Source: Bacteroidales bacterium
Lineage (GTDB): Bacteria; Bacteroidota; Bacteroidia; Bacteroidales; Tenuifilaceae
Assembly (NCBI GenBank): GCA_003818205.1
Contig: RPRQ01000038.1
Location: 1-46,077, forward strand
DNA length: 46,077 nucleotides
Direction of reading: 5' to 3'
How positions within the stretch are numbered: position 1 is the stretch's first letter; each line of letters starts with the position of its first letter. Below, piece by piece: positions 15,857 through 45,958 of this stretch. The notes beneath the pieces are model-generated. The model saw only the letters and a list, made by a program, of their open reading frames with translations, searched no databases and was not told the origin of the DNA. A program made the translations under genes and the position numbers.

Positions 15857-17046
15857 TTATTTGGAGGATACTATTATTGAATTTCCTTTGGTTGAGAATT
15901 TTACATTCGATGAAATGGAAATCATATCCAAAATTTTAGTTATATTATTATACCTTCCAAGGCTTATTGTAAACCTTTGATTCTTCAGGCTCTCATCTTT
16001 AAATTCAAAGTCAAAATTATACCAACGCGACATTACTGTTAGGATATTGTTAATTGGTTCGTTTTCGAATACGAACATACCTTTGGTCCATGCTGTAAAT
16101 AGTTCGGTATTCACTTCTTTGGTTTCTGCGTTTCTTGTATCTTTACTATAAGTTAATTGCTGCCCGGGCTTGATTTTTATTTCAGATTCTAAATTTATGT
16201 TGTTTAAGCTAATACCTACGCTTCCTTCAATCAGAGTAGTTTGAATAAGGTTTTCGTTGCTATATGCCAATATATTAAATACAGTGCCGTAAACAGTAAC
16301 ATTCACATCATTTGCTTTAACAATGAATGGTGTTTCTTTCGATTTTGTAACCTTAAAGTAAGCCTCACCCTCTAATATTACTTCGCGGCTTATACCATTG
16401 AAAACAACAGGGTATATGAGTCTTGAACTTGAGTTAAGCATCACCTCCGTACCATCCGATAAAACCAATTTATATTCGCCTCCACGAGGTGTGATTAGCG
16501 TATTGTATTCTATAGCTTTGATTGTATTATCAATCGAATCATTTTTACTGTAGCTTAGGGTAGAACCCGATTGAACGATTTGTGCTAATTCACTATTTAT
16601 AATTTGTTTGTTATCTGTACTATCGAGTTCAATTTGTTGATTGTTGGCTGTGATAAGAATAGCCTTTTGTTTTCCAGCTACGATAGTGCTTTGTGCCATT
16701 TGAGAAGTTTCAGTTTTGTTAAAAACTAAGTACAAACCACCAGCAAAGCAATAGCAGCTGCATATTTCAAGTAATTTGGGATTAACTTGAAAACTTTTAA
16801 CCGTGTTTCTTGTGGGTATAATTTCTTTTGAACCTTACTGAATGCATCAGCCTTGTTGAATTTTTTCAATTCATTTAGCTCATGTAATAGATGTTTCTCA
16901 TCTTGAAGTTTATTGTAAATGTCTCTGTTTTGCTCATTTTCAGCAATCCAACTTTGCAATGTTTCAATCTCAGAGGCTGATAGTTCCCCCGTTTTCTCTT
17001 TTGAAATCAAGGTTGCGATTTCAAATATTGTATTTAGCTTTTCCAT
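15857..17046 (-). pseudogene. FecR-type anti-sigma factor split by a frameshift in its membrane segment
   Basis: Two overlapping reading frames together make one FecR protein. The first (17046-16726, 106 residues) has the cytoplasmic anti-sigma part with SASEIETLQSWIAENEQNR and ends in the start of the membrane helix, NYLKYAAAIALLVVC. The second (from about 16735 to 15857) resumes GGLYLVFNKTETSQ and contains the periplasmic FecR domain (TPRGGEYKLVLSDGTEVMLN, GEAYFKVTKSKETPFIVK) and the C-terminal DUF4974 part. The second frame has no ATG at its head, only TTG. A missing base around 16726-16740 accounts for the split. Unless recoded or a sequencing error, signalling from the receptor to the sigma factor is broken. 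Confidence 0.85.
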
Positions 17047-17175
17047 AGTAAATCAAATTATGAACTCCTTGTTCGCTATAAATACAACTGAATATGAAAA
17101 GTGGGTGTATGGTGTTGGGATTATTTTTAAGACTGCTTAATGATAAATCAAAAAGGAAAAGAGTAATCGTTTTTA

Positions 17176-17260
17176 CCTCTGTGAAACTCCGTGTGATCTC
17201 GGTGTCCCTCTGTGTAACAATTTATTACACAGAGATTCACAGAGGAAACACAGAGATACA
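17176..17260. repeat. Inverted-repeat cluster of ACACAGAG units
   Basis: The inner arms CTCTGTGTAA (17209-17218) and TTACACAGAG (17226-17235) are perfect complements around a 7-base loop. Flanking copies CCTCTGTGAA and TTCACAGAGG extend the structure. It separates the fecR remnant from the sigma factor gene and resembles the outer arms of the repeat at 30453-30507. Confidence 0.8.
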
Positions 17261-17331
17261 CTGAGTTTGTTTATACGTTCGATGGTAAACCTCAAAAAAA
17301 GAAGAAGGTCTTTCAGATATTAAGAAAGTTT

Positions 17332-17874
17332 TTAAGAAAGAAGTAATAGAATAGAAAGCGAGGGATTCAATTTCTCACGAAGCTGTTTGTAGGCCAATTT
17401 CTTGTGAAGTTTTACAGTATCAATCGAGATTCGCATATCTTCTGCAATCTCATTGTTTTTTAACCCCTGCATGCTTAGCAAAATAACCTGTTTGCGTTGT
17501 TCGGGTAGGTTGTTTATGGCATTGTTGAGGTTTTGAATAACCTCGGCTTCGAGCACATAATCTTCAAAATACAAATCATTATTATCTATAATTGATTTTG
17601 AATGTTTTTCTTTGGACAACAGGTGTTTCTTGTAGTTTATACATCTGTTTTTAATGGAAAGGTACAAAAATGATTTTATATGGTAAATGCTTTCGAATTT
17701 AACCCGTTGATGCCATAATTCGATAAAAACTTCTTGAACAATATCTTCCGCATCATCATAATCATGAATGAACTTATTAGCAAATAAGCACATTGTAGAG
17801 TATAGACTATCAAAGATAAGTCTATACGATTCTTTATCACCTTGCTGAAACTCTATAATTATTTTATCATTCAT
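17332..17874 (-). CDS. ECF RNA polymerase sigma factor, FecI-like
   Basis: 180 residues. Region 2 is seen as YDDAEDIVQEVFIELWHQR (~40-58) and region 4 as NLPEQRKQVILLSMQGLKNN with the helix-turn-helix EIAEDMRISIDTVKLHKKLA (~125-165). It would direct RNA polymerase to the downstream receptor locus when released by FecR. First gene of the sigma / anti-sigma / receptor set; the ~285-base gap to fecR holds a repeat, so the genes may be separately promoted. Confidence 0.93.
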   Translation of the reverse strand: MNDKIIIEFQQGDKESYRLIFDSLYSTMCLFANKFIHDYDDAEDIVQEVFIELWHQRVKFESIYHIKSFLYLSIKNRCINYKKHLLSKEKHSKSIIDNNDLYFEDYVLEAEVIQNLNNAINNLPEQRKQVILLSMQGLKNNEIAEDMRISIDTVKLHKKLAYKQLREKLNPSLSILLLLS

Positions 17875-36955: not shown

Positions 36956-38662
36956 ATGGGTGAAAAATCGAGAATATTTTTAGCGCTTATCATGCTTTTA
37001 GCACATCCATTGTGCTCTGCTCAAAGTTTAAAGGTAACCTTTACCGATTTAGGAACTACCAAAACCTACAAAATCTTAACGCTAAAAAATTATGATTCTT
37101 TATTAATAGAAAAGGTTTTAAGCGATTTTCTTATCCCATTATACAGTAAAGGTTTTTTGTCTGCTTCAATCGATACAATCGTCTGTGATTCCGCTACTAT
37201 AACCGCTTATGGAAAAATGGGGCTCAAGTATCATTGGGTTAAGCTAATCCCTGATAGCGCTTCAAATATGGTTCTAAACGACTTAGGGATCAATTTACCA
37301 AAATTTTCGGGGAAACCTGTAAGCCCTAAATTTTTAGCGCGATATATAAATTTATCGCTGCATTATCTTGAGGATAACGGATACCCATTTGCTAAAGTAG
37401 GGCTTAATAATATTGATATAAGCAATAGTAGTGTTAACGCAACAATAGGTATCGATAAGGGTTCAAGGGTAATAATCGATACCATTTACCTGAAAGGCGA
37501 CGCAAGGATAGCAACCCAAAAGCTTTCGGCTTTGATTAATTTGAAAAGGGGAGAGCTCTACTCCGAATCAAAAATCAGACGAATCGACTCAAGGCTAAAT
37601 CAGCAGCAATACCTGAGTATTATAAAGCCCTCAGAAATAGAGTTCCTTAACCAGAAAGCGAGGGTTTATTGCTACCTGAGCAATCGCCCCGCATCACGCT
37701 TCTGGGGTTTAGCCGGGTTTTATAGCGATAGGGAGGATGGGAAGATTAAGCTTAACGGCGACATCAACCTTTCGTTGGTGAACTCGTTGAGGTATGGCGA
37801 AAAAATAAATTTTGTTTGGAGCGCACCCGGTGAAGGCACTCAAAATCTTAACATCAATACAGACTGGCCTTACATTCTTGGTTGGCAGGTAGGAGTAGTC
37901 GGTGCGTTTTCATTGTACCGACACGATAGCACTTACATTTCGCTTAACCCTAAACTATCCTTTAGCTTTTTCACAACCAGTGGTGGTCGGTTTTTGCTAA
38001 ACCTCGATTATAAAAAAACTTCATATACTTCAAACAGCCTTGTATCTCAGGCTCAGTACGGTAATTCTTCAGCTTTTCTTTACGGGCTAGGCTATGAGTA
38101 TAGCCTCTACGACAATGCAATTCTACCTACTAGGGGAATTTCCCTTAGAACCAATGTGAATACGGGTAGCCGAAGATTACAGAAGCAAAAGCCAATCTCC
38201 AACCTGATAGAGGGGGATATTTTTGCCGAGACTTTCATTCCACTTTACGAAAAACGATTTGTATTAGGAATTCGCTCCAACTCTAAGGTGAGGGCTATTT
38301 ACAACACCAAAGGGAGTACAACGCTTTTCGAGAATGAGATGTATAGGATTGGTGGCATGGGAACTATTCGGGGCTTCAATCAGGAGGCAGTGCTTTCCAC
38401 GGCATACTCTATCGCTTCTTTGGAGTTACATTTAAGAACGAGCGAGGGTTCAGGGATTTACCTATTTACCGAAAAGGCTTTTGTTAGAGCCTATGAGTTA
38501 GGATTTAGTAGGGATAGATGGCCGATGGGTTTGGGTATAGGCTTGAATATGGTTATCAAAGCAGGACTATTCAACCTCAGCTACGCTCTTGGTCAAGGGT
38601 TCGGGCAGAGCTTAAGTACACGAGATGCTAAAGTGCACTTTGGGATTGCTACAACTTTTTAA
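36956..38662 (+). CDS. BamA/TamA-family outer-membrane protein (Omp85)
   Basis: 568 residues. Signal peptide 1-22 (IFLALIMLLAHPLCSAQ), then POTRA-like periplasmic region (~23-235, with VIIDTIYLKGDARIA typical of the last POTRA), then a 16-strand barrel from ~245 to the C-terminal TTF. The conserved L6 loop motif is GGMGTIRGFNQE (~464-475). Shorter than BamA, so it is probably an accessory Omp85 involved in outer-membrane insertion or transport of specific partners. Stands alone before the AT-rich island. Confidence 0.88.
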   Translation: MGEKSRIFLALIMLLAHPLCSAQSLKVTFTDLGTTKTYKILTLKNYDSLLIEKVLSDFLIPLYSKGFLSASIDTIVCDSATITAYGKMGLKYHWVKLIPDSASNMVLNDLGINLPKFSGKPVSPKFLARYINLSLHYLEDNGYPFAKVGLNNIDISNSSVNATIGIDKGSRVIIDTIYLKGDARIATQKLSALINLKRGELYSESKIRRIDSRLNQQQYLSIIKPSEIEFLNQKARVYCYLSNRPASRFWGLAGFYSDREDGKIKLNGDINLSLVNSLRYGEKINFVWSAPGEGTQNLNINTDWPYILGWQVGVVGAFSLYRHDSTYISLNPKLSFSFFTTSGGRFLLNLDYKKTSYTSNSLVSQAQYGNSSAFLYGLGYEYSLYDNAILPTRGISLRTNVNTGSRRLQKQKPISNLIEGDIFAETFIPLYEKRFVLGIRSNSKVRAIYNTKGSTTLFENEMYRIGGMGTIRGFNQEAVLSTAYSIASLELHLRTSEGSGIYLFTEKAFVRAYELGFSRDRWPMGLGIGLNMVIKAGLFNLSYALGQGFGQSLSTRDAKVHFGIATTF

Positions 38663-39245: not shown

Positions 39246-39276
39246 TTGAAAATATATTAATAATTACATATATTTG
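39246..39276 (+). promoter_or_regulatory. Strong consensus promoter of the precursor peptide gene
   Basis: TTG (39246-39248), a 20-base spacer and TATATTTG (39269-39276), which matches TAnnTTTG exactly with ideal spacing. The ATG is 25 bases downstream. Confidence 0.8.
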
Positions 39277-39300
39277 TGTATTAACCTAATAAATTGTATT

Positions 39301-39459
39301 ATGAAAAAGAAACAAAAAGAAATGTATCCTAGCAAGGATCAGGTAATTCTTGATGAATTTAAAGTTGAAGAATTAGAAGAGAGACTTGAAATGACAAATC
39401 TGACAACTGATGCAAAACCAGATGTAGATGTTGAGGTAGGAGTTGTTTGGCGCTTTTAA
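39301..39459 (+). CDS. Putative RiPP precursor peptide (52 aa)
   Basis: 52 residues: a charged, Lys/Glu-rich N-terminal part (MKKKQKEMYPSK; VEELEERLEM at 22-31) that looks like a helical leader, then TNLTTDAKPDVDVEVGVVWRF with no Lys after residue 39. The only Trp is residue 50, third from the C terminus. No Cys. The frame has its own strong promoter and is separated from the enzyme genes by a terminator-like hairpin, which would give more peptide than enzyme, as usual for RiPPs. The combination with a polyprenyl-synthetase-like gene recalls ComX (about 55 aa, prenylated on a Trp near the C terminus). Core boundary and modification are inference; no homologue is recognised by eye. Confidence 0.75.
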   Translation: MKKKQKEMYPSKDQVILDEFKVEELEERLEMTNLTTDAKPDVDVEVGVVWRF

Positions 39460-39482
39460 TTCGCTAATAAAACTTTAACGGG

Positions 39483-39585
39483 GCTGTATCATAGATGTCT
39501 AATTTTAAGAAGCATATCCAGTAAATATTGTTGCTAGAATACTATACTTATCAAAAGGCATTATTGATACAGCTCATTTTTCTTT
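39483..39585 (+). terminator. Terminator-like hairpin between precursor and enzyme genes
   Basis: GCTGTATCA (39483-39491) and TGATACAGC (39565-39573) form a 9-bp stem with a ~73-base interior, followed by TCATTTTTCTTTTTT. It could stop most transcripts after the peptide gene and let a fraction pass. The ends resemble other GCTGTATCA-type elements common in this phylum. Confidence 0.65.
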
Positions 39586-39675
39586 TTTATAGTTCATATT
39601 TGTAAAAAATATTTTCCGTGTATAGCGTTTAAGAAAGAATAATTTTATTTATTTGTTAATTTAACAAAAGACTGT

Positions 39676-40863
39676 ATGATAATTAGATTCGCTTGTATTC
39701 TAACATGTAATCTTCTTTTTTTGGGGATAAGTTCATTGGCTGATGAGAATAGCTATTCAATAAGCGGGAGAGTTCTTTCAATAAAGGACAGTACGGCTAT
39801 TCCTTTTGCTCATTTATACATTAAAAAATCAAATACGGGTTCTATTAGCAACGAAAAAGGAGAATTCAATTTGTTTATTAACAAGGAGAGTATCACTGAT
39901 ACGCTTATAATTAGCGCTATCGGTTATAAAAACGAAAAATACTGCATATCTGAAATCATTAATTCAAGTAAAGTATATCTTTTATCGGAACAAATTTACG
40001 AAATTAGAGAAATAACAGTCTCTCCTGTTAACTGCAAAGAAATTATTAATAATCTCTTTGCTAGAATAAAAGATAATTATCCCGATAAACCTACAATCCT
40101 TGAGGCATATACTCGACAGATGATAATCGAGAATCAAAATTATTCAAGATATCTTGAGGCTGCTTTAACTATTTATAATCCATCATATCAACTGATTAAT
40201 AATGGCTCGGCAAGCGAAAATCAGATAATGCTTAAAAGTGCAAAAGCCAGTTTAGATAAAACCAATAGCAACTTAAAGCTCAATGTGAACACATCTGAGC
40301 TAATAGATAAAATATTTGTAGCTAAAACATTTGACTTTATCAAGAACCTTAGTATTGATGAATTAAAATTTGAAAGTATAGTACATTTTAATAACCGAGA
40401 TATTTATTTAATTGTTATTCGCCCTTCCGAAAAATCTTCATACTATGGTAAGATATATATTGATAAAGAATCATATGCATTAGTTTCATTACAGATTAAA
40501 CAAGACTTAAACTTTGAACGAAAAGCTAAAGCGTATTTGAAGAAATTTGTTAATGTAACCTATAAATTTAAAGTATATTCCTTAAGACTCGATTTTTTAC
40601 CAATGGAAGATTTGTGGAATCTAAGCTACTTGCAGGATAGCTACGACATTGATGTTTTTACTGATGATAAAGAGACATTAAACCTTAATTTAGAGTTTAT
40701 TAATGATATTTTTATTAATGAAGTAATTAATAAAGATGTAAAGCAAATTAATAAATCAGATAGAATTAACCCCAAAAAGGATTTATACTCTCAACCAAAC
40801 ATACTTGATGATAAGATATGGGATAATTACAATAAAATTCAACCACCAAATTCCATTAAATAA
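39676..40863 (+). CDS. Exported carboxypeptidase-regulatory-domain protein in the peptide cluster
   Basis: 395 residues. Signal peptide (~1-22, IIRFACILTCNLLFLGISS), carboxypeptidase-D regulatory-like domain (~28-115: YSISGRVLSIKDSTAIPFAH, NTGSISNEKGEFNL, ISAIGYKNEKYC), then a region starting CKEIINNLFARIKDNYPDKP that resembles the opening of DUF5686 proteins but stops without the barrel. A periplasmic location is inferred. No TonB plug. First of four genes with overlaps of 1 and 4 bp and a 6-base gap, so it belongs to the maturation operon; it may bind, display or sense the product. Confidence 0.75.
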   Translation: MIIRFACILTCNLLFLGISSLADENSYSISGRVLSIKDSTAIPFAHLYIKKSNTGSISNEKGEFNLFINKESITDTLIISAIGYKNEKYCISEIINSSKVYLLSEQIYEIREITVSPVNCKEIINNLFARIKDNYPDKPTILEAYTRQMIIENQNYSRYLEAALTIYNPSYQLINNGSASENQIMLKSAKASLDKTNSNLKLNVNTSELIDKIFVAKTFDFIKNLSIDELKFESIVHFNNRDIYLIVIRPSEKSSYYGKIYIDKESYALVSLQIKQDLNFERKAKAYLKKFVNVTYKFKVYSLRLDFLPMEDLWNLSYLQDSYDIDVFTDDKETLNLNLEFINDIFINEVINKDVKQINKSDRINPKKDLYSQPNILDDKIWDNYNKIQPPNSIK

Positions 40864-42890
40864 TGATAGATCTTAATGCGTTTGAAGAAAAAAACAAGAA
40901 ATTTTCATATTACATATCAAAACTTCCGTACGATAATGAGATCAAGGGGTCATTAAATAATCAAGAATTTATTCGAAAGAACCCACCTTACTATTTGTAT
41001 TACCCTGAGTTATTTGCGAAGGCATTTAACTATACTGATAGAGAAAAGATTGAGCTGTTATGCTTTGCAGGTTTTTTTTACTATAAGCATTTAATTATTC
41101 ATGATGAAATAAATGACAATAACTCTTCAAAAGGTTCAATATATAAATTACTATTAATTGCTAATATATGTCAGGAGGAGAGTATTAAAATACTTACAAC
41201 TCTATTCCCTTTGAATTCATCTTTTTGGAAGTTGTGGAATAAAAGAAAAATGGAGTTTAGCAAAGGAATAGTATATGATAAAAACCCAACCCGCATTAAA
41301 AATTTTCGAGATTTTGAAAATTTTGCAAATGCTAAGTCAGCGATAGGTAAAATAGCTATTGATGCTCTTAATATTCTATCAAAAAACAGAAATCATTCAT
41401 TATATAATGAAGTTCTTAGTTCACATAAATGGTTCTATTGTGGGTTTCAGATACTTGACGATATAATTGATTTTAGAGAGGATATTGAGAATAAGCAAAC
41501 AAATATTGCAAAAATTCAATTAGAAAAAAAACTTGGAAAGGATAATAATTATAGCACTCCTGATTTGGAGAAATTATTATTTTTAAAAGGTATTGCTGAG
41601 GACTTACTGCAAAAAAGCCAATTTTACTATAGTAAAGCCAATGATTCGGCAATAAAATATAAACTCAATCTTTGGACTGAAGTTATTAAATTAAATATTG
41701 CTGAATCAATAAGAAGAGAAGTTAATATTAAAACATTTATTAAATCCATTGAAATTCGTATAAAACTTGAAAAGGAATGCAATAATAAATTAGTAGAAGA
41801 TATTATTATTGATAAGTCTAATGATATTTTCTATAATATTGGTGTCGATGCTTTCGAACACATTTATAATAATTGGAAAAAAGGATATGGTGAGCTTCAA
41901 CATATCCTTTTTCTTCCAAGAAATGAGGGATTTGAAACTGAAGAAGAATTTCATTATGCTGATATATTTCAAAGAGCTATAGTTACAGATTCTTTTTTTG
42001 ATGCTAATACTATTTTCAAAGGTCAATTATCGGAATTAATAGAGTATGAGGTACAATATTTAAAGTCCAAAAAAATATCCGATTATCCTGGCGGCTGGAG
42101 TTATCTTCCATCAATAAAGGAGGTTGCTGCAGATGCAGATGATTTAGGCCAGATGCTTCAGGTTTTTTCACGTAATGAAGATAAACAATATATAATCGCT
42201 ACTTGCAAGACTCCAATTGATACTTTAAATGAAAACTGCATACATGAAGATGGGGGAATTGAAACATGGATTATCCCTCAAAATAATAGAACCTTATTTC
42301 AAGAACGTCAATATCTCTTTAATACCTCAAAATGGGGAACTGGACCAGATAGTGAGGTAATGGCAAATTACCTTTATGGCTTGAGTCTATATAGCATTGA
42401 AGAGTATGAAAATATTATCCGTAAAGGGATTGATTATTTATTGAAAAAAAGAGCACCACAAGGTTTTTGGGTAAGCCGCTGGTATTACGGAGTATATTAT
42501 GGTACCTATGTTTGTTTAAGACTAATTAAAAGAATAACAGGTGATTATGCATTATTGAAACCTAGCGGAGACTATATATTTAATAATCAAAATGAAGATG
42601 GTGGATGGGGAAATGGAGATAAAAGCGATCCCTTAAGTACATCCTTGGCGCTACTTTGCTTGAGTCAAATTATAGAATATGAACCGATCAGGTATGGTTC
42701 AATTATCGATAAGGCTGTCGAATATTTAAATAAACTTCATCAGCTAAATAAAATATTTATTGGCGTACCATTTATTAAACCTAGAACAAACGACCCTTAT
42801 ATAAGCAAGACAATTGTAGCTTCTTATGTTCTAAAAGCAATTTCAATACTTATCAAAAAGAACGATCAGGATATAATTTCAATGCAATGA
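40863..42890 (+). CDS. Class I polyprenyl-synthetase / class II squalene-cyclase-like fusion
   Basis: 675 residues. The N-terminal ~300 are an all-helical isoprenyl diphosphate synthase fold: first acidic motif HDEIND (80-85, a DExxD form) and second GFQILDDIIDFRED (194-207, DDxxD at 199-203). The C-terminal ~300 are an alpha/alpha-barrel of the squalene-hopene cyclase/prenyltransferase superfamily: GGWSY at 410-414, a DADD (424-427) at the place of the cyclase DxDD acid, and a QW-type repeat QNEDGGWG (576-583). Class I domains ionise allylic diphosphates; class II domains protonate double bonds. The order (class I first) is the reverse of plant and fungal bifunctional diterpene synthases. 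The ComQ parallel suggests that it prenylates the peptide and perhaps cyclises the isoprenoid; making a free terpene is the alternative. Confidence 0.8.
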   Translation: MIDLNAFEEKNKKFSYYISKLPYDNEIKGSLNNQEFIRKNPPYYLYYPELFAKAFNYTDREKIELLCFAGFFYYKHLIIHDEINDNNSSKGSIYKLLLIANICQEESIKILTTLFPLNSSFWKLWNKRKMEFSKGIVYDKNPTRIKNFRDFENFANAKSAIGKIAIDALNILSKNRNHSLYNEVLSSHKWFYCGFQILDDIIDFREDIENKQTNIAKIQLEKKLGKDNNYSTPDLEKLLFLKGIAEDLLQKSQFYYSKANDSAIKYKLNLWTEVIKLNIAESIRREVNIKTFIKSIEIRIKLEKECNNKLVEDIIIDKSNDIFYNIGVDAFEHIYNNWKKGYGELQHILFLPRNEGFETEEEFHYADIFQRAIVTDSFFDANTIFKGQLSELIEYEVQYLKSKKISDYPGGWSYLPSIKEVAADADDLGQMLQVFSRNEDKQYIIATCKTPIDTLNENCIHEDGGIETWIIPQNNRTLFQERQYLFNTSKWGTGPDSEVMANYLYGLSLYSIEEYENIIRKGIDYLLKKRAPQGFWVSRWYYGVYYGTYVCLRLIKRITGDYALLKPSGDYIFNNQNEDGGWGNGDKSDPLSTSLALLCLSQIIEYEPIRYGSIIDKAVEYLNKLHQLNKIFIGVPFIKPRTNDPYISKTIVASYVLKAISILIKKNDQDIISMQ

Positions 42891-44086
42891 GCGATAACGA
42901 TATAGAAATCAAAGACATTATACCCAAAATCCATTCAAATGTTCATTTTATTCAAACAGATGATCTTGACTTTATTATTGAACTTACGGATAGTAATTAT
43001 AAGGTTCGAATCAAGAAAGAATTATATATTTTTCTAAAACAAATTGATGGTAATCATACTCTTGGTGAGCTAACAAAAAGCTACAATTATTCTAATAACT
43101 TCAATTTATCCGTTGATTATTTCTATAATATATTAGTTCAGAACCTTAATGCTTTTAGATTTATTGAGGAAAGTAATGAGCAGGCTAAGCCGAGTAGAGA
43201 TTATCTGCATTTAAGAGCAATATTAATTAATGAAAAAACGGTTGATAAAATAGTTAATTATACAAAGATTCTTTTTAATAAGTATGTATTTATTTTTCTA
43301 CTTGCATCCTCGTTTATTTTTATTTGTGTTCACAATGTATTTAATTACAATATAATAAATGATTCAATTAAGAATATGCATGGAAAATTTCTATTTGTAT
43401 TGCTTTCTTTCATAATCGTAGATGTAATCATTCACGAGCTTGGACACGCTAGTGCATGTAAATTTTTCGGGTCTCGCCAAAAGGGCATTGGTTTTGGATT
43501 TTACATTTTTAGTCCTGTCTTTTTTACTGATGTTTCAGATATTTGGAAACTTAATAAAAAAAGAAGAATAATTGTTAACCTAGGGGGAATCTATTTTGAA
43601 CTTATTCTTAACGCCATTATACTTATTGTATATTATATTACAGGTTTTAAGATACTTTTAATTCTACCAGCTTTTGTATTAACGAAACTAATTATTGATC
43701 TTAATCCTTTTTTTAGGTACGATGGTTACTGGATACTTAGCGATTTAACCGAAGTTCCCAATCTTAGAAAACAGTCATATCGTACGATAAATGAGTTTTT
43801 TATTAATAGAAGTGTGTTAAATTTTACTAGCCGTGATTATTTTTTATTATTCTACGGTATAATTTCTATTCTAATTATTGGAGCGTTCATAGTTTTTATA
43901 ACAATTATCCACCCTACCCTGATTTTAGAGGGGTGGAAGCATATTTATAAATTAATTGTAAACATTATTTTTAGTAATGCTATAAGCTATAGTATCGAAG
44001 ATATTTTCTTTAGGATTTTTATCCCTTTGGTTTTTTATATAATGGTTATAAAATACTTAATTAGCTTAGTGAAATTTAAAAAATAA
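42887..44086 (+). CDS. PqqD-like / M50 membrane metalloprotease, YydH-like
   Basis: 399 residues. N-terminal ~20-95 is a winged-helix of the PqqD/RRE kind (VRIKKELYIFLKQIDG, HTLGELTKSY). Then several membrane helices with the zinc site HELGH (183-187) in VIIHELGHASACKFFG and the second motif DLNPFFRYDGYW (271-282, Asp279 as third ligand). This is the arrangement of 'putative peptide zinc metalloproteases' such as YydH, which accompanies a radical SAM enzyme and the YydF peptide in Bacillus. Expected job: bind the leader, cut the modified peptide inside the membrane, and perhaps release it. It overlaps the upstream gene by 4 bp (ATGA). Confidence 0.85.
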   Translation: MSDNDIEIKDIIPKIHSNVHFIQTDDLDFIIELTDSNYKVRIKKELYIFLKQIDGNHTLGELTKSYNYSNNFNLSVDYFYNILVQNLNAFRFIEESNEQAKPSRDYLHLRAILINEKTVDKIVNYTKILFNKYVFIFLLASSFIFICVHNVFNYNIINDSIKNMHGKFLFVLLSFIIVDVIIHELGHASACKFFGSRQKGIGFGFYIFSPVFFTDVSDIWKLNKKRRIIVNLGGIYFELILNAIILIVYYITGFKILLILPAFVLTKLIIDLNPFFRYDGYWILSDLTEVPNLRKQSYRTINEFFINRSVLNFTSRDYFLLFYGIISILIIGAFIVFITIIHPTLILEGWKHIYKLIVNIIFSNAISYSIEDIFFRIFIPLVFYIMVIKYLISLVKFKK

Positions 44087-44092
44087 ACTATA

Positions 44093-45958
44093 ATGGACTT
44101 TAAAGTATTACTTAACTGGCTACCTCCTGCACAAATTAATTCTCCATCAATCTCTTTATCTGTATTAAAAAGTTACTTAAACGAAAAAAATATTAACTCC
44201 AAGATAATCTATTGGAATGTTTTGTTTCATAGTGAGATGAAGAAATTTTTCGGCGAAAAGACGGATGATGATATGGCAAAACTATTACCTTTCATAAATA
44301 TTTTAAACAATATTAAAAATAATATAGATAATAAGCAGAGAATTATATCAGCACTTCAAGCAATAAAGCCCGAATTTTTATTTGAGTTTAATGAAAACCT
44401 TGAATCAACTTTTAATACATTTCAAAAGCGATTGTTATCTATTATTAGTAAGACGATTAAGGAGATTGATTTTAGTCAAATTAAGTTGGTAGGCTTTTCA
44501 AGTAAATTTAACCAATGGATTCCTGCAATAGTAATATCAAATATAATTAAGCAAAATCATCCAGAAATTAAAATTGTTATCGGCGGATTTGGTGATAGAG
44601 GTGCTGCTAAACAAATGCTTGAATATTGTAGCGATTTTGATTTTGCGATTTGGGGAGAAGGCGAAGATCCACTGGTAAAATTACTTGATGCTATTGATAA
44701 TAAAAACGATTATAATGAAGTACCCGGTTTAGCATTTCGAGATAACAATGAATATAAACTATCTCAGAAAGCAAGAAGTTATATTAATATTAATAAATAC
44801 ACTCCTTGCTTTGATGATTATTTTAAACTTCCGTTAATTAATAACTCAATAAATACATCTAAAACAAATAATATTGTTGGTTTAATTAATAGCATAAGGG
44901 GTTGTAACTGGAATAGATGTAAGTTTTGTGTATTAAACCAAGGGTATAAATATCGTGAGGTAGATAATGAGATAACTATTAAGAGGATTGAGGAGTATAT
45001 TAAAAATTATAATATTTATAGATTTGAATTTGTTGATAACGATATTACAGGTAATGATCGTTCAAAGTTTATAAACTTTTTAGAAGCTTTAACCATACTT
45101 TCTTCAAAACATCAGACTAAAATTGAAATTTACGGAGAGATAATACCTGCAAATATGAATTCTGGGTTAATAAAAAAGATGAAAATAGCAGGCATCGAAA
45201 AGGTTCAAATTGGATTTGAAGCCTTAACTGATAATCTACTTAAAAAAATGGATAAAGGGATTGGGTTTTCAGATTCAATCCTTTTTATAAAATTTGCTTC
45301 AAAAAATAGTATAAGTATCACAGGAGCTAATGTGATAATGGGAATTCCCAATGAAACAGAGGAAGATGTCCACGAGAGTATAGTTAATCTACACTTTTTA
45401 CGATTTTTTATGGGTAAGAAGATTGGGGGTATCAAGTTAAACAACTCTCAATTAGGGGTTTACAAAGGGAGTCGATTCTATAGTATGCTAAAAGGAGAAG
45501 AGTTAGAGTGCTGGAATTCAAATATAATATTTGATATTATTCCAAAGGAGTGTTTCTCAGAAAATCGATTTATTAATTTTGGTTTTGTTAATATAGTTTA
45601 TCCTAATTATATTGAATGGGAGAAGTTTAGGAGTATTAATAAAGTTTATGAAGAATCAAATTGTTATTATAGATTAATAGAAGATAATAATATCATTTAT
45701 TATAGTGAGTTTTATAATGGGAAACTAGTCAAGGCTATAACTTTTGATGAACCCATTTACTGGGATTGTTTAAAATTCACAAATAATCAGGTACAAAATT
45801 TCGAAAGTTTATATGCTCATTTACTGACAAAATATGAATTGATTAGCGAGTCAATGGTAAAAGAGATTCTAGCTGCTTTAAAGACAGATTTTCTTATGTA
45901 TTACAATAGCGATCAAAGTCAAATTGTATCCATTATTGATACATGCCTTACTAGTTAG
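44093..45958 (+). CDS. B12-domain radical SAM enzyme, RiPP-maturase-like
   Basis: 621 residues. N-terminal part (~1-225) is a cobalamin-binding-like Rossmann domain (VGFSSKFNQWIPAIVISNII, IVIGGFGDRGAAKQML, WGEGEDPLVKLL), but no DxHxxG base-off motif is seen. The radical SAM domain starts at SIRGCNWNRCKFC with cluster cysteines C271, C276 and C279, spaced CX4CX2C and not the usual CX3CX2C; the spacing occurs in several B12-type families. It continues with FEFVDNDITGNDR and GIEKVQIGFEALTD, typical of the TIM barrel. Likely reactions are C-methylation or another radical modification of the peptide. Last gene in the readable operon; export genes may lie beyond the window. Confidence 0.85.
   Translation: MDFKVLLNWLPPAQINSPSISLSVLKSYLNEKNINSKIIYWNVLFHSEMKKFFGEKTDDDMAKLLPFINILNNIKNNIDNKQRIISALQAIKPEFLFEFNENLESTFNTFQKRLLSIISKTIKEIDFSQIKLVGFSSKFNQWIPAIVISNIIKQNHPEIKIVIGGFGDRGAAKQMLEYCSDFDFAIWGEGEDPLVKLLDAIDNKNDYNEVPGLAFRDNNEYKLSQKARSYININKYTPCFDDYFKLPLINNSINTSKTNNIVGLINSIRGCNWNRCKFCVLNQGYKYREVDNEITIKRIEEYIKNYNIYRFEFVDNDITGNDRSKFINFLEALTILSSKHQTKIEIYGEIIPANMNSGLIKKMKIAGIEKVQIGFEALTDNLLKKMDKGIGFSDSILFIKFASKNSISITGANVIMGIPNETEEDVHESIVNLHFLRFFMGKKIGGIKLNNSQLGVYKGSRFYSMLKGEELECWNSNIIFDIIPKECFSENRFINFGFVNIVYPNYIEWEKFRSINKVYEESNCYYRLIEDNNIIYYSEFYNGKLVKAITFDEPIYWDCLKFTNNQVQNFESLYAHLLTKYELISESMVKEILAALKTDFLMYYNSDQSQIVSIIDTCLTS

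Follow-up and report, generated by a model that had tools for sequence, protein, structure and literature searches.

A putative prenyltransferase-cyclase cluster with a tryptophan-bearing precursor peptide and a B12-type radical SAM enzyme in a Bacteroidales genome

Peptides that carry a cyclised terpene have been reported only recently, and two fused enzymes described in a 2026 review (PMC13290415) are the closest points of reference. According to that account, which is traced to Hubrich et al. 2024, ChrPC has a P domain resembling trans-isoprenyl diphosphate synthases (trans-IDS), which uses C10-C20 donors to prenylate an internal Trp, and a C domain, which cyclises the chain; NctPC, in the same review, is a prenyltransferase of an unrelated P fold fused to an MstE-like cyclase, and it also acts on a peptide Trp. 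The locus analysed here lies at the end of contig RPRQ01000038.1 of a Bacteroidales bacterium of the Tenuifilaceae (assembly GCA_003818205.1, genome size 5.2 Mb); the whole contig, 46,077 bases, is called the window below. A block of low guanine-plus-cytosine (GC) content (39301-45958) comprises five open reading frames (ORFs), which encode a 52-aa peptide, a probably secreted protein, a fused enzyme of 675 aa, an M50 protease and a radical S-adenosylmethionine (SAM) enzyme of B12 type. Judged from the sequence, and with a probability of roughly 0.75, this block makes a ribosomally synthesised and post-translationally modified peptide (RiPP), in which Trp would be prenylated, the terpene cyclised, the leader cleaved off and the core acted on by a second maturase. 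An earlier note on this DNA had listed the peptide, a synthetase-like enzyme, the M50 protease and the B12-type radical SAM enzyme as packed together, and all of these ORFs are indeed there. The anatomy of the block also supports what the note proposed: a ribosomal peptide whose Trp is the likely acceptor, a member of the isoprenoid-synthase superfamily, an M50 protease for the leader and a partner of radical SAM type.

The best reading is that of a ChrPC-type cluster in which both the C-terminal place of the acceptor and the second maturase are unusual. As in ChrPC, which is known to us by description only, a trans-IDS-like P domain is fused to a cyclase domain in the window enzyme; the motifs of both domains are intact, and a precursor with a leader and a core Trp lies nearby. 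Homologues with 35-36% identity occur in Chryseobacterium and Epilithonimonas. Given these homologues and the architecture described for ChrPC, the core chemistry, prenylation and cyclisation on a peptide Trp, is very probably not new, and the view that no described pathway joins such elements fails in its prenyl part, since ChrPC and NctPC acting on peptide Trp are already in print (PMC13290415). The window differs from this type in that its Trp is third from the end, whereas the Chryseobacterium peptides found here have Trp beside the leader, and in that a B12-type radical SAM enzyme is present. With NctPC, as described, it has in common a fusion with an MstE-like cyclase, but the window P domain has the trans-IDS-like fold. 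A search of titles and abstract openings gave no publication in which a prenyltransferase-cyclase is accompanied by a B12 radical SAM enzyme, and the primary ChrPC paper may mention such a pair. A shifted acceptor or a second maturase would widen the use of these enzymes, and a sole Trp at position -3 makes it possible to ask, in a defined setting, how a fused enzyme of this kind gains access to the distal end of its core.

The putative fused peptide prenyltransferase-cyclase (40863-42890; forward strand, as are all other features of the block) was assigned by folds, profiles and motifs. Its P domain (about residues 1-310) is isoprenoid-synthase-like, and about residues 322-675 form a class II terpene cyclase domain of squalene-hopene-cyclase type, a half of the protein that the earlier note had passed over. 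The P domain carries DxxxD at D81/D85 and QxxDDxxDxxxD at residues 196-207 (41448-41483), with the second Asp-rich motif, QILDDIIDFRED, intact, while the cyclase domain carries DADD at residues 424-427 (42132-42143). Pfam and NCBIfam detect the cyclase half only, and the polyprenyl-synthetase Pfam model matched three proteins in the genome, the 675-aa enzyme not being among them. Compared with solved structures, a profile of 34 homologues matched squalene-hopene cyclases at 8e-29 and, weakly, the polyprenyl synthetase 4lob at 1e-5. The AlphaFold2 model (predicted local distance difference test, pLDDT, 92.6; predicted TM score 0.87) resembles polyprenyl synthases best in its N half, and monodomain squalene-hopene-type cyclases, drimenyl-diphosphate synthase and MstE in its C half. 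Residues D81, D85, Q196, D199, D200, D203 and D207, together with the aspartates of DxDD, are invariant in the aligned fused enzymes (34/34), and DxxxD occupies the place of the first motif in all 50 P-domain ORFs that have the second Asp-rich motif (in locus L033 with Cys for Gln). A GGKRxR-like motif for binding isopentenyl diphosphate was found in the first 130 residues of none of 51 P-domain ORFs; this is a soft argument, since of the genome's own three canonical synthases, taken as a control with a slightly looser pattern, only one shows GGKR, DDxxD and the following Arg being present in all three.

PalQ and its peptide PalX, as described in PMC10853753, are a further point of comparison. 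PalQ is also a trans-IDS-like Trp prenyltransferase, acting near the C-terminal end of its peptide, and the spacing of its residues D89/D93, Q197 and D200/D204 equals that of DxxxD, the Gln at -3 and the second motif in the window enzyme. In that description no cyclase is given for PalQ, the leader is of the NHLP (nitrile hydratase leader peptide) type, Trp is the last residue, and the three-gene cluster contains neither an M50 nor a radical SAM gene.

Several homologues vary in their enzyme genes. In the cyclase half, D-x-D-S-[ST] replaces DxDD in L030, L031, L033, L039 (7969-9942), L042 (4970-6856) and L101, the enzymes of L039 and L042 concerned being the first of each locus. The P domain occurs alone, with an M50 gene and a peptide, on two Hymenobacter plasmids. 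In L065 (Chloroflexi DSAR01000199, 375-4324) two enzymes stand beside the precursor as if the activities were split: one has the second Asp-rich motif, and in the other this motif was not found but DxDD is intact. The cyclase-half matches of L090, L091, L093, L095 and L098 lie in ORFs of 730-826 aa with several hundred residues preceding the match, possibly NctPC-like fusions. Enzyme genes of the family are in pieces in L078 (Chryseobacterium mucoviscidosis) and L094 (Capnocytophaga leadbetteri).

Related loci were collected by searches of plasmids (tblastn, 3 records matched), of 395 genomes of the phylum (18 matched) and of 395 genomes of the class (62 matched, mostly weakly and partially, with three under E 1e-30), and by a profile scan of genome contigs with the enzyme alignment, which gave 60 loci where a single-enzyme query gave none. 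By record title they span Bacteroidota, Balneolota, Ignavibacteriota, Cyanobacteriota, Chloroflexota, Acidobacteriota, Gemmatimonadota and others. A P-domain ORF is present in 56 of 73 loci, and 44 of these 56 have a leader-motif peptide on the same strand within 6 kb; L025-L029 repeat the contigs of L040, L061, L070, L077 and L076 and are counted twice in these three figures. A set of 46 loci leaves out the repeats and the cyclase-only loci; the P cluster is counted in 45 of them, the P-domain ORF of L089 being masked by a longer ORF. The weak matches L034-L038, L101, L016 and L019 were inspected and excluded from the counts, and most other weak matches were left unread. In a tree made by a quick method, with long branches and odd composition flagged, the window falls in no well-supported small group. 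The recurrence of the peptide leader, the enzyme and the M50 gene together in other genomes disfavours a chance grouping, and the comparison as a whole establishes the gene content, the fold assignments, the invariant active sites, this recurring peptide-enzyme-protease set and a nearly universal core Trp.

The precursor gene runs from ATG at 39301 to a stop ending at 39459. Its 52-aa product is MKKKQKEMYPSKDQVILDEFKVEELEERLEM-TNLTTDAKPDVDVEVGVVWRF, where the hyphen marks the presumed end of the leader; the leader motif FKVEELEERLEM comprises residues 20-31 (39358-39393) and the core TNLTTDAKPDVDVEVGVVWRF is encoded by 39394-39456, a border that is inferred. The sole Trp is residue 50 (39448-39450), third from the end in a peptide that ends in VVWRF, as the earlier note had said. 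The leader motif F-x-V-E-E-L-E-x-R-x-E is common to 59 distinct peptides, that of the window included, beside homologous enzymes. The pattern was drawn from the first peptides seen and then run on the remaining loci; it gave 60 distinct peptides, from which a match in L071 (IVLSQ...) was removed as spurious. All 59 have Leu 6, Arg 9 and Glu 11 in common within the motif, positions at which the search pattern allowed only close alternatives. One identical peptide is common to L045, L046, L047 and L049.

Trp is present in 55 of the 59 distinct cores, which bears out the expectation that homologous clusters would keep it. Its position is another matter: the supposed invariance of Trp at -3 does not hold, and this place was rejected as a signature of the family. 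In 54 cores (the 59 without L043, dropped as a near-duplicate of L042), Trp, which mostly follows directly on the leader, lies within positions 1-3 in 32, in the last three positions but not the first three in nine (the window, L033, L059, L065 and five from L072), and elsewhere or nowhere in 13; a sole Trp at -3 occurs in three of the 59. Five tandem precursors in L072 (Ktedonosporobacter rubrisoli, 16674-17699) all end in Trp (..NGW, ..VNW and similar), a PalX-like C-terminal Trp within the family, with genes for a fused enzyme and a radical SAM enzyme of SPASM type close by. The Gemmatirosa plasmid of L005 (7587-7946) encodes a leader-motif peptide without Trp, whose tail resembles a PEP-CTERM sorting signal.

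The third enzyme gene encodes a predicted M50 membrane protease of 399 aa (42887-44086), with HELGH at residues 183-187, NP..DGYW at about 273-282 and a putative RRE/PqqD-like domain (RRE, RiPP recognition element) at about 15-92. The Pfam M50 model matches at E 1.2e-5 with 25.2 bits, under its cut-off of 27.2. The nearest models are those of the daptide protease (NCBIfam daptide_HExxH, NF041824; 8e-34, 117.4 bits, under a 300-bit cut-off) and of YydH/LiaK (NF058609; 1e-21, 77.8 bits, under a 225-bit cut-off); both cut-offs are thus missed, and the partner enzymes of the daptide protease and of EpeP/YydH differ from those of the window. EpeP, as described in PMC10885120, is an M50 protease sufficient for production of the epipeptide EpeX and thought to cleave and export it, although its deletion did not fully abolish production. 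In the window family H183, E184, H187, P274, D279 and G280 are invariant in 25/25 aligned M50 proteins, and the gene family is found in 37/46 loci. In the model (pLDDT 88.2), the N-terminus forms three strands and then three helices, in the order known from RREs; Pfam finds no PqqD or RRE domain in the 399-aa protein. Foldseek lists SpoIVFB first (E 0.013, with a poor superposition at a root-mean-square deviation of 14.7), followed by the leader-bound RREs of TbiB1 and lasso B1 and by PqqD, at probabilities of 0.99-1.00 and E values of only 0.05-0.4.

The last gene encodes a radical SAM enzyme of 621 aa with a B12-binding-like N part (44093-45958), assigned by Pfam and NCBIfam. The Pfam Radical_SAM model matches at 3e-16, and a B12-binding match in the N part is sub-threshold. 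The best NCBIfam match is TIGR03975, a family of RiPP radical SAM C-methyltransferases, at 203 bits, under the cut-off of 282; the protein has RGCxW...C.FC.LN in common with this family but a Cys motif of CX4CX2C at residues 271-279 (44903-44929) instead of the CX7CX2C of all three aligned members. Elsewhere in this genome, at C74:19910-21055, another radical SAM sequence matches TIGR03975 more distantly (88.6 bits). The pairing of a prenyltransferase-cyclase with a B12-type radical SAM enzyme occurs only in the window among the 73 loci, since the other 72 contain no relative of this enzyme (phmmer, E 1e-5). Close kin at E 1e-30 were found in 1 of 296 phylum genomes, its own; at E 1e-15, 17 of 390 class genomes matched, its own and 16 with partial matches at no more than 29% identity (best E 2.6e-20); and in 50 plasmid records no match covered 80% of the enzyme.

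Radical SAM maturases of another type, SPASM, are present in 15 of the 46 loci, a label given by sequence clustering; five of the 15 were checked against NCBIfam, where each exceeded the cut-off of the SPASM domain model and of no other model. Cys occurs in a core at all 12 loci that have both the SPASM gene and a peptide, versus 10 of 24 loci without the gene (Fisher p 7e-4, indicative, because the loci are related), and at three further loci with the gene no peptide was found. Trp prenylation with a second maturase on one core is also known for the lanthipeptide of MppC, which differs, as described in PMC12715784, in an alpha-beta-beta-alpha fold, a geranyl group and a lanthionine ring, with no cyclised terpene described.

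In the proposed mechanism, the maturation enzymes would hold the precursor by its leader F-x-V-E-E-L-E-x-R-x-E, with the RRE-like domain of the M50 protease as the probable point of contact. The P domain, to judge from its family, would move a long prenyl group, most likely C15-C20, from its diphosphate onto W50, and the C domain, whose motif and fold suggest it, would protonate the end of the bound chain through DxDD and fold the chain into rings. The radical SAM enzyme may modify the core a second time, most likely by C-methylation and perhaps within the Val-rich VDVEVGVV, although C-methylation there is a guess from the family. The M50 protease would remove the leader in the membrane.

Certain observations weigh against this reading. 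Four of the 59 cores (L005, L032, one of L062, and L063) contain no Trp, and the window Trp is at the end of the core, far from the leader, unlike that of most relatives. No RRE fold match of the M50 protein is below E 0.001, and a methyltransferase was also listed at a probability of 0.99. Because ordinary prenyl synthases also have Gln at position -3 of the second Asp-rich motif, this residue was rejected as proof of Trp binding, and a PalQ variant with both second-motif aspartates changed to Ala was still active in the account of PMC10853753, which makes an intact second motif weak evidence of function. A leader-motif peptide is missing from 12 of the 56 P-domain loci, and this, with the union of a class I and a class II terpene fold in a single protein, would also suit an enzyme that makes a free terpene, the peptide being unrelated. 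Such an arrangement is highly improbable, since a peptide with the same leader lies near the enzyme in the other 44 loci, the closest families to the M50 protein are leader proteases of RiPP systems, and some relatives with a P domain only (L003, L004 and L032) still keep peptide and protease. The role of the radical SAM gene is in doubt as well, since its family match is sub-threshold, the Cys motif is odd and the gene occurs at one of the 73 loci, with no close kin in the 296 phylum and 390 class genomes: there is somewhat less than an even chance that it is a passenger or performs a reaction other than C-methylation. Its position on the same strand after a 6-base gap, its GC content, as low as that of the block, and the SPASM maturases of 15 of the 46 related loci weigh against this.

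In the ComQ/ComX system, which has a sensor kinase as partner, the Trp of ComX of strain 168 is at -3, as in the window peptide, and a signalling role had been suggested on this likeness; the prenylated product would then be a quorum signal. The window enzyme and ComQ belong to the same superfamily by the account in PMC13290415, PalP-PalX-PalQ has a histidine-kinase-like gene according to PMC10853753, and the distant cluster L065 has one about 2 kb beyond its enzymes. A pheromone is nevertheless quite unlikely: no kinase or regulator was found among the five block ORFs or the 20 other window ORFs scanned, the contig ending 119 bases after the block, and the Trp position is not conserved among the cores. 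Membership of ComQ itself was rejected, because ComQ as described in PMC10853753 has no second Asp-rich motif, and no cyclase is described for it, while the window enzyme has the motif and a fused cyclase domain. The analogy with ComX holds for the enzyme superfamily and the acceptor residue, not for family membership, and nothing points to signalling.

The C-terminal tail invites a different thought on function. For the beta-signal of outer-membrane proteins PMC10945584 gives the consensus polar-x-Gly-x-x-Z-x-Z, where each Z is aromatic or hydrophobic and position 0 is also hydrophobic, and darobactin is a mimic of this signal, as described in PMC13067283. The window tail VEVGVVWRF fits the consensus, position 0 included, in a comparison made post hoc, and so does the tail VEVGVKWTF of L065, whose enzymes stand in another well-supported part of the tree. 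With Tyr taken as polar, seven of the 59 cores fit the consensus, two of them belonging to a single locus, whereas it is fitted by 28/8090 of the other small ORFs and 5/582 of the long ones; with the hydrophobic position 0 it fits 2/59, 8/8090 and 1/582, respectively, and the stricter Gly-x-x-aromatic-x-aromatic fits 3/59, against 5/8090 and 2/582 ORFs of the same loci. Hydrophobic residues alternate from the C-terminus in the 21 Cys-free cores to a degree reached by 0/5000 shuffles, whereas alternation in cores with Cys is weak (215/5000 shuffles reach it). The test was chosen after the tails had been seen, the 8090 small ORFs arise for the most part by chance and 52/59 cores do not fit, so that the likeness is a lead and its statistics are exploratory.

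A product which inhibits the beta-barrel assembly machinery (BAM), or is itself targeted to the outer membrane, with VEVGVVWRF copying the beta-signal and the terpene as membrane anchor, is rather unlikely, in spite of the enrichment among cores, the alternation in Cys-free cores, the tail of the distant L065 and the darobactin precedent. The Omp85/POTRA protein gene directly 5' of the block (36956-38662) gives no support to it, having no relative at E 1e-3 in the 73 loci and a host-like GC of 0.41 against 0.285 in the block, and the same values led to its rejection as an immunity copy. The fuller version, a C-methylated polycyclic-terpenoid RiPP whose beta-signal tail docks on or blocks BAM, as an independent terpenoid counterpart of darobactin with the terpene on the beta-signal aromatic, is very unlikely. 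The resemblance to the beta-signal, if it holds, would lead from a finding about chemistry to a mode of action on Gram-negative bacteria that can be tested.

With regard to the setting of the cluster, GC content is 0.285 in 39301-45958 and 0.374 in the contig up to 38662, and the full 675-aa enzyme was found in 1 of 27 genomes of the window's family, its own, with one further weak partial match (E 5.8e-4); both facts fit acquisition of the block from elsewhere. The contig stops 119 bases past the radical SAM gene, and the cluster may therefore be cut off. The other 20 window ORFs scanned include an ilv operon, moeA, TonB-dependent receptors and genes of HipA-like and BRO-like proteins, among others.

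Upstream of the peptide gene, a sequence pattern TTG-N20-TATATTTG (39246-39276, forward strand) matches the Bacteroidota promoter consensus; with a spacer of 17-23, the pattern has nine sites in the window on both strands and appears in 1.3% of 2000 simulated stretches of 141 bases. Downstream of the peptide gene and ahead of the remaining operon genes, folding predicts a hairpin with a long loop followed by a T-rich run (39481-39590, forward strand), similar to an attenuator or terminator (-32.4 kcal/mol and z -4.5 for 39460-39600), which could favour the output of precursor over that of enzyme; a simple terminator scan lists no terminator there.

The second gene of the block (39676-40863), omitted from the earlier note along with the nearby contig end, encodes a CarboxypepD_reg-like protein of 395 aa (PF13715, 8.2e-12), which is probably secreted and whose stop codon overlaps the start of the fused enzyme gene. 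Its family is found in 19 of the 46 loci, the window included, often between the peptide and enzyme genes, and five loci without it have another family in common (sequence cluster 4).

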